A stretch of 64,000 nt of DNA from Armatimonadota bacterium (GCA_031459855.1 JAVKHP010000001.1:1612429-1676428); one strand, 5' to 3'. Shown: positions 16,001-19,364, numbered from the stretch's first letter. The notes: generated by a model not told the origin, from the letters alone. Translations and numbers: made by a program.

Positions 16001-18136
16001 CTACGCCGGCGCCAGCACGTGTTCCAGCAGGACGACCCGGTCCGCCACCGCGTCGTAATGCGGCCAGGCGGTGCTCAGGATCACCTGCCGTTCCTTCGCG
16101 GCGGCCACCAGCAGCGGCAGCATCGCCCGGCGGCGTGCCTCGTCCAGGTGCGCGAACGGCTCGTCCAGGAAGAGCGGCGGCCGTCGGTCGCCCGTCATCA
16201 CGTCCAGCAGGGCCAGGCGTAGGCAGAAGTAGAGCTGGTCGGCCGTTCCCTGCCCCAGGTCCGCCGGGTCGCGCCAGCCGTCCTGTGCGTGTACCACCGG
16301 GCGGAGAGTCCGATCGTCGATCGCGACCCGGGTGAGGGCGCCGCCCGTGGCGGTCGCCAGGTAGGCCGACGCGCGGCGCTCCAGCACCTGCCGGGCGGGG
16401 TAGACCGAGTGCGCGCGGGCTTCCTCGAGCATGCGCAGCGTCAGCGCCGCGACCTGGAGTGCCCGTCGGTCGCGGGCGGCGCGCGCCTCGAGCACGGCGA
16501 TCGCCTCTTCCAGGCTCGCAGCCTCCTCGGCCCGGCCGCGCGCCTCCTCGATGGCGGCCTCCAGGCGCGCGCGACGCTCGCGCAGCTCCTGGAGATCGGC
16601 GTCCAGCCGGCGGACCTGGTGCTCGACGTCGTCGGGGGAGGCGGCCGCACCGCGCGCGGGAGCCGGGATCGCCTCCAGCGCGGCGCGTATGCCCGCCAGG
16701 TCCTGCGCCAGCGCCTCCAGGCGCCGCTCGAGCGCTGCCTTTGGGTCTGGGCCCCACACCGCGCGCAGTGCTGCCCGCAGCTCCTCGCGCTCGCGCAGCT
16801 GCTCCATGTAACTTGAGAACCGCTGCTCCACGTCTTCCAGGCTGGCGCTGCCGATGGCCTGCAGGCGCGCCGTCACGGCCGCCTCGGCCTCGGCGAGCTG
16901 GCCCTGCAGGACGTCGACGCGTCGGCGAAGGTCGAGCACGCGCTGTTCCTGCTGCCGGTAGTCGGTACCCGTCTCGACGATGCGTCCCCGGTAGCGCATC
17001 CCCGTGACGGTGACGCCGCCGGCGGCAGCCAGCACGAGCCAACCCAGCCAGTGCTGCAGCGCGGCGACGATGCCGGCGCCGCCCACCACGCCGATCGCCC
17101 CCGCCGTAACCAGCGCCCACCCTCTGGCGCCCAGCTGGCGGACGGCGTGGTGCGCCGTGGCCAGCCGCTCCAGCACGCGTTCCTCCCGGGCCGCCTGGTC
17201 GCGGGCCGTGGCCAGGTGCTGCTGCACCTGGAGGTACTGCCGCCGCGCCTGGAACAGGCTGGCGACCAGCGCCTCCTGATGCGCGGAGAACGCGGCCAGG
17301 GCGGCATCCAACTCGGCCAGGCGCCGGAGCTGGTCCTCGACGCGGGCCAGCTGCGCGCGCACGTCCGCGGCTTCGCGGGCGAGCGCCTCCTCCCGCTCCT
17401 TGAGCTCGACAGTCTGGCGGAGTGCGCGCAGCAGCGCCGTCTGGGCTGCCAGCTCGCGCTCGGTGGCCGCGGTGCGCTGCGCCAGATCGTCGAGCTCGAG
17501 CTGGTGGCGTCGCAGGCGCTCGTCCTGCTGGCGCAGCGCGGCCAGCTGGGCCCGCAACTCGGCGACGCGCGCGGCGGCGCCGTGCGGCCCGTGCAGGGCA
17601 GCAGTGAGCCGGCTGCGCTGCTCGCCCACCAACTGCATCGCCTCCTGCAGCCGCGCAGTACCCGCGCCGGCGAGCACCCGGGAGAGGTGGGTGGCCAACA
17701 GCCGACGGTCGTCGGTGATCCGCGCCAGGCCGGCGTGCCCCACGAACGCCACCGCCCGGTAGGCGGCCTCGGGGGAGATGCCGATCCAGTCCACCAGGCG
17801 TCGGTGCACGTCGCGGGGTGCCTCGAGACGCTCCGCGCCGTCGGCGCGCTGCAGCAGGATCGTGTCGGCTTCCAGATCGCGGCGCAGCAGCCAGCGCGCG
17901 CCGTCGACCTCCAGGTCGATGGTGATCTCGCCGAGCCGGTCCTGGCCCCACGGCCGCAGCCGCTGGGCCTCCTCGGGACGCACCGGGTGACCGAACAGCC
18001 CGGCGAAGACCGCCTCCAGCACCGTCGTCTTGCCCGCGCCGTTGGGTCCGCGGACGACCGTGAGACCGGGTGCGAAGGTCGCGGTGTAGTCTGCAAACCG
18101 CCGGTACCGCCGCAGGCGCAGCTGTACGATCCTCAC
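16001..18136 (-). CDS. SbcC/YhaN-like coiled-coil ATPase with membrane hairpin
   Basis: A 711-residue SMC/Rad50-type ATPase. Walker A is GPNGAGKTT (30-38), followed by two long coiled-coil stretches (about 165-335 and 390-620), the signature LGQGTADQLYFCLRLAL, and Walker B PLFLDEPFAHLD (about 655). Between the coils, where Rad50 has a zinc hook, is a hydrophobic hairpin (339-380) that could insert in a membrane, as in Bacillus YhaN. The GTG at 18136 follows GGAGG. The neighbour upstream is an SbcD/YhaO-like protein, the usual partner. The pair ends 2 bases from the convergent kinase gene. Confidence 0.88.
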   Translation of the reverse strand: MRIVQLRLRRYRRFADYTATFAPGLTVVRGPNGAGKTTVLEAVFAGLFGHPVRPEEAQRLRPWGQDRLGEITIDLEVDGARWLLRRDLEADTILLQRADGAERLEAPRDVHRRLVDWIGISPEAAYRAVAFVGHAGLARITDDRRLLATHLSRVLAGAGTARLQEAMQLVGEQRSRLTAALHGPHGAAARVAELRAQLAALRQQDERLRRHQLELDDLAQRTAATERELAAQTALLRALRQTVELKEREEALAREAADVRAQLARVEDQLRRLAELDAALAAFSAHQEALVASLFQARRQYLQVQQHLATARDQAAREERVLERLATAHHAVRQLGARGWALVTAGAIGVVGGAGIVAALQHWLGWLVLAAAGGVTVTGMRYRGRIVETGTDYRQQEQRVLDLRRRVDVLQGQLAEAEAAVTARLQAIGSASLEDVEQRFSSYMEQLREREELRAALRAVWGPDPKAALERRLEALAQDLAGIRAALEAIPAPARGAAASPDDVEHQVRRLDADLQELRERRARLEAAIEEARGRAEEAASLEEAIAVLEARAARDRRALQVAALTLRMLEEARAHSVYPARQVLERRASAYLATATGGALTRVAIDDRTLRPVVHAQDGWRDPADLGQGTADQLYFCLRLALLDVMTGDRRPPLFLDEPFAHLDEARRRAMLPLLVAAAKERQVILSTAWPHYDAVADRVVLLEHVLAPA

Positions 18137-18215
18137 AGGGGCCTCCGTCCTTCCAGCTCTTTCTGCGACGTCCAGGCCGTCCGGTACCGGCCCCGCGCAG
18201 CCGGCTGCACGGTCG

Positions 18216-19364
18216 TCATGGGCCCTGCCGTCCTTCCAGCAGCGCCAGGCCCAGCCGTAGCGCCGCTGCTGCGATCCGACGCGCCTCGGGGTCGGGCGCA
18301 CGCTCCAGCTCGCGGCGCGCTACCGTGAGGAAGGCGCTCGCTGCCGAGAGCTCGGGGAACCGGGTGGCGGCCGTCTCTGTGGCAGCCACCGTCGTCTCGT
18401 CCTCCAGGTCCAGCGCCAGGAACGCGTCGCGGGCGCCGGCCAGCGCGCGGTCGAGGTCGATCGGCTGGTCGGCGCGCAGGGCGCCGGTCAGGCGGACCAC
18501 TGCCGCCAGGTCCGGGCTGCCCAGCGCCCGGATGGCCGCGACCAGGTCGTCGGTGTGAGCGTACGCTGCGGCGTCGAGCGTCAGACGCTGGAAACGGCGC
18601 CGGGCCACCGGCACGGGGATCACGTGCGCGTGGTCGTTGCAAAACTCCACCAGCACCGGTCCGCCGTCCCCTTCGACGGGCGCGACCAGCTCCGGGGCCC
18701 CCGGGAAGAGCGCGCGCACACGGTCCGAACCGACCTCCCGGCGCACGGGCGAGTTGCCCAACGCCAGGTAGTGAGCGCCGGAGGCGTCGATCAGCCTCCG
18801 CAGCAGGGCCAGCGCTTCGTCGCTCTCGGGCACCTCCAGGCAGGCCGCGCCTACCAGGTAGGGACGGCGCGGATAGCGTGCCAGGGCCGCGAGGAAGTCC
18901 GCCGACACCGGGGCAGCGCCCCACGAGATCCCCACGATCGTGATGGCGCCGTCGGCGACGTCTATGGCCCGAGGTGCCGCGGGAAAGACGGTGACGCGCT
19001 CGAGGTCGGCGAAGGCGCCCAGGGCGTAGGTGCGGTCGACCACGGGGTCGAGGGGACCCGCGGCGATGAGGACGGGGATGGCCCGGGCGGTGAAGCGCGC
19101 GAGCTGGTCCCGGGCGAACTGCAGGAGGTCCCGCGAGGGGACCGGCGTGCCAAACAGGTTTCCGGTGACGAGGACGGCTGCCGGCTGCAAGTCGATGCCG
19201 GCGTCCACGGCGCGCACGAAGGCCTCGCGGACCTGGCGTCGGTGCGCGGCGCCGGCCTCACCGAGGAAGGGGAACGCTGCGCCCAGCCGGACGTCGGCCA
19301 GGTGGTAGAGGGCCGGCCCGCAGCGGGGCCCGCCGAAGGCGGAAGGCGACGGACTCTGCGTCAT
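18216..19364 (-). CDS. SbcD/YhaO-like protein lacking all metallophosphoesterase ligands
   Basis: A 382-residue homologue of the nuclease partner of SbcC/YhaN. The frame is intact and the fold is traceable, but each catalytic motif is changed: HxADxHxG is HLADVRLG (21-28), GDLFD is GNLFG (68-72), GNHD is GPLD (103-106), the LLHTN-type motif is LVGAACL (170-176), and GHIH is GNSPV (203-207). No Mn-binding set remains, so nuclease activity is unlikely. The ATG at 19364 has a GGAG upstream. The C-terminal part (about 270-380) is helical. I read it as a maintained pseudo-enzyme partner, not a decayed gene. Confidence 0.8.
   Translation of the reverse strand: MTQSPSPSAFGGPRCGPALYHLADVRLGAAFPFLGEAGAAHRRQVREAFVRAVDAGIDLQPAAVLVTGNLFGTPVPSRDLLQFARDQLARFTARAIPVLIAAGPLDPVVDRTYALGAFADLERVTVFPAAPRAIDVADGAITIVGISWGAAPVSADFLAALARYPRRPYLVGAACLEVPESDEALALLRRLIDASGAHYLALGNSPVRREVGSDRVRALFPGAPELVAPVEGDGGPVLVEFCNDHAHVIPVPVARRRFQRLTLDAAAYAHTDDLVAAIRALGSPDLAAVVRLTGALRADQPIDLDRALAGARDAFLALDLEDETTVAATETAATRFPELSAASAFLTVARRELERAPDPEARRIAAAALRLGLALLEGRQGP

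Follow-up and report, generated by a model that had tools for sequence, protein, structure and literature searches.

Background

What becomes of an Mre11-type protein once the residues that held its catalytic metals are gone, yet its ATPase partner is kept beside it? The locus described here, at positions 16,001 to 19,364 of the window (the whole 64,000-nucleotide stretch of DNA that was analysed), raises this question, since it pairs a YhaO/SbcD homologue with a largely substituted metal site with a YhaN-like ATPase. In Mre11-Rad50 complexes, two Mre11-type subunits dimerise and hold two ATPase heads, ATP engages the heads and clamps DNA, and the nuclease is active in some states only, so that such a complex without its metals would still be left with the clamp. 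Among the relatives of the pair, YhaN of B. subtilis is the protein also called SbcE, with a role in double-strand-break repair as cited in PMC4205851, and yhaONM is presented as an SOS-regulated putative break-repair cluster in PMC3896406; both sources refer the SbcE naming to Krishnamurthy et al. 2010.

An Mre11-fold protein coupled to a YhaN-type ATPase

The yhaO-like gene (18216..19364, minus strand, ATG start) encodes a YhaO/SbcD-fold protein of 382 aa made up of a nuclease domain, a capping domain, and C-terminal helices, with its metal site lost, and the adjacent yhaN-like gene in the same orientation (16001..18136, minus strand, GTG start) encodes a YhaN (SbcE)-type SMC/Rad50-like ATPase of 711 aa. 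In nine relatives the yhaO stop codon directly overlaps the yhaN start, whereas the window junction carries an 83-bp insertion with a coupled 28-aa mini-ORF (18133..18219, minus strand), absent from those relatives, that is joined to the yhaO stop by an ATGA overlap and to the yhaN start by a GTGA overlap.

No Pfam family matched the window YhaO, and a PDB sequence search with this protein as sole query returned no match; Mre11 and SbcD were matched in the PDB with a profile of the YhaO family alignment, and these matches needed the profile rather than the single sequence. The AlphaFold (AF2) model of the protein (pLDDT 88, pTM 0.83) had top Foldseek matches that were all Mre11/SbcD chains, with E values down to 1.1e-14. 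Profile, predicted structure, and Foldseek matches confirm an Mre11/SbcD fold with nuclease and capping domains, as the preliminary description of this locus had proposed from the intact frame and fold landmarks.

Set beside known systems, the pair resembles the YhaO-YhaN (SbcE) pairs of Bacillota in gene pair and order, AAA_27 ATPase, short coiled coils, hydrophobic hairpin, and Mre11-fold partner, but departs from them in having all but one metal-site position of YhaO substituted, a Q-loop His and an LGQG signature in YhaN, and a position outside any recA/repair locus; Monoglobus pectinilyticus (L221), with ligands DHDNHHHH, the hairpin, and an LDD Walker B, was an intact comparison. The Mre11 fold, capping domain, C-terminal helices, and Rad50-like heads are likewise shared with SbcCD and Mre11-Rad50, whereas the window pair is without the Mn ligands and the CxxC zinc hook of those complexes and has much shorter coiled coils.

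Loss of the metal site in a whole clade

Ligand positions were referred to P. furiosus Mre11 (1ii7; D8, H10, D49, N84, H85, H206, and H208) and to intact homologues. At the eight metal-site positions compared (those seven and H173), the window YhaO has D24, R26, N69, P104, L105, C175, N204, and P206, that is, D-R-N-P-L-C-N-P, where intact phylum members have D-H-D-N-H-H-D-H; seven of the eight are substituted, the equivalent of D8 alone is kept, and the two-metal site is absent. By alignment, and all on the minus strand, DxH of motif I has become DVR (19287..19295; D24 kept, His replaced by R26), GD of motif II is GN (19158..19160; N69), NH of motif III is PL (19050..19055; P104 and L105), the His of motif IV is Cys175 (18840..18842), and motif V, GDWH in the order, is GNSP (18747..18755; N204, S205, and P206). 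Two arginines that follow motif V, R208 and R209, are invariant in the dead clade.

The change of His to Ala given for motif IV in the preliminary description is right in that the His is lost in the window, but the residue is Cys; five of the seven orthologues still have His, another has Tyr, and the Cys is the window's own. The change of GHxH to GNSP in motif V gives the window residues correctly, but the ancestral motif of the phylum is GDWH: position 206 is Asp across the phylum, and distant relatives have GHWH. The GDWH site is possibly a variant that is still active. GDWH is also found in the YhaO of a WS6 genome (L112:5992-7110), with Asp in place of Mre11 His206 and the other ligands complete.

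Six of the losses (H10R, D49N, N84P, H85L, position 206 to G or N, and H208P) are common to 7/7 orthologues from four genera, which answers in the affirmative the alignment check suggested with the preliminary description, namely whether homologues share the substitutions. Close relatives with all ligands, which would have pointed to recent decay, turned out to be a different paralogue (copy B, below) or members of other families, and the true orthologues share the loss. In three further genomes of the same family a half-way form of YhaO was found, in which D8, H10, D49, and H208 are kept, motif III has become E(A/N), and position 206 is Gly, so that all four Mn1-type ligands are retained and the Mn2-type ligands are lost. 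Dead and half-way forms make up one clade (100/100), within which the dead forms are a nested clade (100/100). The sequences thus document a stepwise dismantling of the Mn site, apparently with motif III and position 206 first and H10, D49, and H208 afterwards, an order read from the states of dead, half-way, and intact forms and not from reconstructed ancestors. Open frames, replacements common to six other genomes, and dN/dS well under 1 exclude chance or an assembly error as the cause of the altered metal site, and on the aligned sequences the loss is not recent.

The ATPase and its hairpin

The window YhaN scores above the Pfam cut-off for AAA_23 and AAA_27, and its model (pLDDT 82, pTM 0.46) matches Rad50 and SMC proteins in Foldseek, with Lamassu and Jet chains also among the matches. 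Walker A (GPNGAGKTT, 18023..18049) and Walker B (LFLDEPF, 16154..16174), both on the minus strand by alignment, are of the Rad50/SMC type. The preliminary description was accurate for these two motifs, but it also took the signature as kept, and this stretch reads LGQGT (16244..16258, minus strand) rather than LSxG, most relatives having LSQG(T/M) or LSRG; the Q-loop Gln, found by alignment in nearly all homologues, is lost as well (His133; 17735..17737, minus strand). All copy-A orthologues of the window YhaN retain both the Q-loop Gln and the LS of the signature. Walker B is DE (LDEPF) in the dead and half-way pairs, while the phylum's intact pairs, like the majority of distant YhaN proteins, have DD (LDDPF). 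Copy A's shift from DD to the canonical DE could reflect a re-tuning of ATP hydrolysis that went with the loss of the nuclease; independent dead lineages mostly keep DD, however, so the link does not hold generally.

No CxxC zinc hook was found in the window YhaN sequence, which has a hydrophobic hairpin instead (residues ~341-379; 16997..17113, minus strand, from sequence and model), placed in the model between the two coiled-coil helices at their apex. The hairpin reported earlier in place of a zinc hook is therefore real, but intact YhaN homologues carry it too; the idea that it is special to this pair was rejected, and it is an ordinary, family-wide YhaN feature. A membrane location is probable, with hydrophobicity no proof of insertion.

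Two copies of the pair and their loci

Almost the whole phylum, CSP1-3 or Sysuimicrobiota (PMC11604079), carries the pair, which is passed on vertically there; 40 of 43 genomes gave a match to a YhaO-family profile, a few of them weak. A conserved locus of the phylum has the order cinA, recA, recX, UvrD/PD-(D/E)XK helicase-nuclease, yhaO, yhaN, RNase Y, ymdB, selA (e.g., L078, L081, and L085-L087), and of the intact pairs with flanks that were read, nearly all are inside or adjoining it. In one genome (G014) yhaN is split into two frames beside a ligand-complete yhaO (L082:6538-8732), either a real break or an assembly error.

The family of the window genome has a second copy elsewhere (copy A), with an amidohydrolase gene upstream in several genomes, and the ligand-complete copy B of the recA locus is a different paralogue from it. 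Copy B (e.g., G004:C8 and G001:C5) belongs to the same protein families as the window pair but has ligands DHDNHHDH, the recA-recX-helicase/nuclease-RNase Y surroundings, and DD rather than DE in Walker B. Both copies occur in G004, G005, and G007, where copy A is the half-way form; G001 has the intact copy only; and the window genome (G000), G002, G003, G006, G008, G009, and G010 have only the dead copy A. The window pair is thus a diverged second copy of the YhaO-YhaN complex in one Sysuimicrobiota family, and the tree places copy A near family f7 with weak support (85/43).

In the six dead-pair genomes read across the recA locus (all but G009), the helicase-nuclease gene is followed by RNase Y without yhaO-yhaN. 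The slot of the intact pair is occupied in five of the six by an RmuC-like gene of a second type (G002:C3, G003:C113, G006:C41, G008:C13, and G010:C45; L156-L159 and L161), found in three of the four genera, while the window genome has a 384-bp gap there and RmuC elsewhere. RmuC is described in PMC1189080 as a predicted transmembrane PD-(D/E)XK nuclease family. An intact SbcCD hidden in the window genome was looked for and not found: profile searches gave no SbcC/SbcD and no TIGR00619 match, the three metallophosphoesterase matches (one of them YmdB by position) include none in an SbcD-sized frame, and the AAA_23 matches are proteins of other sizes. Genus g3 has an extra, separate SbcCD-like pair.

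Selection on the emptied pocket

Within genus g3, dN/dS (NG86) of the dead yhaO was 0.23-0.31, similar to yhaN (0.22-0.26) and recX (0.25-0.34), with recA at about 0.1; between g4 and g7 the value for the dead form was ~0.34. In the dead clade the loops of motifs I, III, and V reach 93-100% identity, compared with 68% for the whole protein, a conservation equalled by only 2/361 circular shifts of the loop set, while motif IV is relaxed (39%). Eleven positions have one invariant residue throughout the dead clade and a different fixed residue in the intact clade; six of them belong to the metal motifs, and Arg is fixed at 26, 208, and 209. The dN/dS values, the frozen loops, the fixed residues, and the yhaO-yhaN overlap in nine copy-A relatives show a pair retained under purifying selection, with its emptied pocket subject to constraint even now.

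The window lineage stands apart in that pairwise dN indicates yhaO and yhaN evolving ~2x faster than in the sister genera, with no speed-up in the controls RecA, HelNuc, and RNase Y. By these comparisons it is the most derived lineage, and its ATPase is not claimed as normal, given the faster evolution, the Q-loop His, the LGQG signature, and the 83-bp insertion; the faster evolution and the ATPase changes would suit a weakening of selection in this genome.

Repeated loss outside the phylum

A dead YhaO was also found in a genome outside the phylum (G051), and among 30 loci retrieved as its relatives, 16 are without the metal site, in varied ways. YhaO was scored as lost when any of the eight ligands was missing (N or T allowed at 84, H or D at 206), and the history of loss was read from a tree that omitted the ligand columns. 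On it, five changes of the intact/lost label are required. One origin of all degenerate YhaO was rejected, as p-AU was 8.8e-7 for uniting all lost rows in one clade and 6e-6 for uniting the lost rows from outside the phylum, values that serve as guides only since the groups were defined after the sequences had been seen. By sequence, this amounts to about five independent losses of the YhaO metal site in the sample. The degenerate YhaO proteins outside the phylum (L171, L172, L181, L187-L195, and L197-L200) resemble that of the window in their lost ligands and adjoining YhaN gene, but they are independent losses with mostly variable pockets, in which the motif I change of His to Arg recurs. 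In the loci fetched with flanks, the YhaN gene next door encodes the Walker motifs and the hairpin wherever that part is covered. Several of the genomes concerned have no place other than the dead YhaO that matches the SbcD model.

What the pair may do

The pair is best read as a complex with a structural or regulatory role and no Mre11-type nuclease activity, because the metal-site loss is old, common to orthologues, and under selection. The role first proposed, a complex at the membrane with no nuclease activity, is upheld in part: the hairpin is family-wide, and the ATPase is not fully intact here. Since nearly every residue needed for cutting is gone while the pair persists across four genera, and similar losses have occurred several times elsewhere, its task is probably to hold or mark DNA and not to cut it. 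On balance we lean towards a non-nucleolytic, ATP-gated DNA clamp or tether, its coils fixed at the membrane, that holds or marks DNA for separate nucleases. DNA cutting would have been lost, and the dead YhaO, by homology, would act as a dimeric base, linking two YhaN ATPase heads and setting their position; ATP binding by the heads would form a DNA clamp, with the contact between YhaO and YhaN and the binding of DNA assumed from homology, as the structure models are of single chains. The apex hairpin would fix the coiled coils of the clamp to the membrane and so tether DNA there, and the complex could then hold or mark DNA ends or other structures for the recA-locus helicase-nuclease and RmuC-type proteins. 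At a guess, R26, R208, and R209 in the emptied pocket may now bind a DNA phosphate at the spot vacated by Mn2+.

Several other explanations bear on the same data. The pair may have been left without a function once the recA-locus copy disappeared or an RmuC-type nuclease arrived, and may be drifting to loss, most clearly in the window lineage, where both genes have sped up (RecA, HelNuc, and RNase Y have not), the Q-loop and signature have changed, and 83 bp have been inserted at the coupling junction. Recent decay limited to the window genome was rejected for the metal site, but not for this faster evolution. As an account of the pair as a whole, decay is unlikely, though it deserves to be taken seriously: frames are open in seven genomes, dN/dS stays low in g3 and between g4 and g7, the pocket loops are frozen with new fixed residues, partner and coupling are kept, and about five parallel losses elsewhere also kept the partner. 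Another reading makes the altered pocket a sensor of a ligand or of DNA ends, in which the arginines, by binding a nucleotide or phosphate, would gate YhaN, signalling or protecting ends with no tethering of the chromosome. The three arginines invariant in the dead clade, the pocket loops conserved despite lost catalysis, and the recurrent His-to-Arg change of motif I speak for such a sensor, but pockets in other dead lineages are variable and a single, common base change suffices to turn His into Arg, and we regard the sensor as rather improbable.

Hydrolysis by another route, with a single metal, a metal carried by the DNA, or a new site, could appeal to D24 and to the four Mn1-type ligands of the half-way orthologues; it is very unlikely in a clade without any metallophosphoesterase motif, and for a window protein in which Pfam finds no domain. 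Hardly probable at all is an anti-phage defence SMC system of the Lamassu or Jet kind in place of a repair complex. The window YhaN does have partial matches to the profiles of LmuB, MADS Mad3, and PtuA, besides the Lamassu and Jet chains in Foldseek, but these are partial ATPase matches alone, and the full-length match and effector genes of Lamassu/SMC-like defence systems were not found. The window YhaO had no match to the defence profiles, the nearest relatives are Rad50 and YhaN, and vertical inheritance has carried the pair through almost the whole phylum.

Conclusions

The locus appears to encode a nuclease-dead variant of YhaNO that has a clear history of stepwise change and has arisen independently elsewhere, and for which the clamp or tether outlined above is a plausible mechanism. 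More tentatively, and with less than even confidence, the selected core activity of YhaNO at large may be nuclease-free, that of an ATP-gated, membrane-anchored Mre11-fold clamp whose Mre11-type subunit was repeatedly turned into a pseudonuclease, in some cases with arginines where the metals had been. Whether Mre11-Rad50-type complexes are chiefly nucleases or DNA tethers is a long-standing question, and here evolution ran the separation-of-function experiment several times, with the cutting site gone while ATPase, hairpin, and partner stay. The series from intact through half-way to dead forms in one family, together with the empty slot at the recA locus, provides natural test cases for a non-cutting role.
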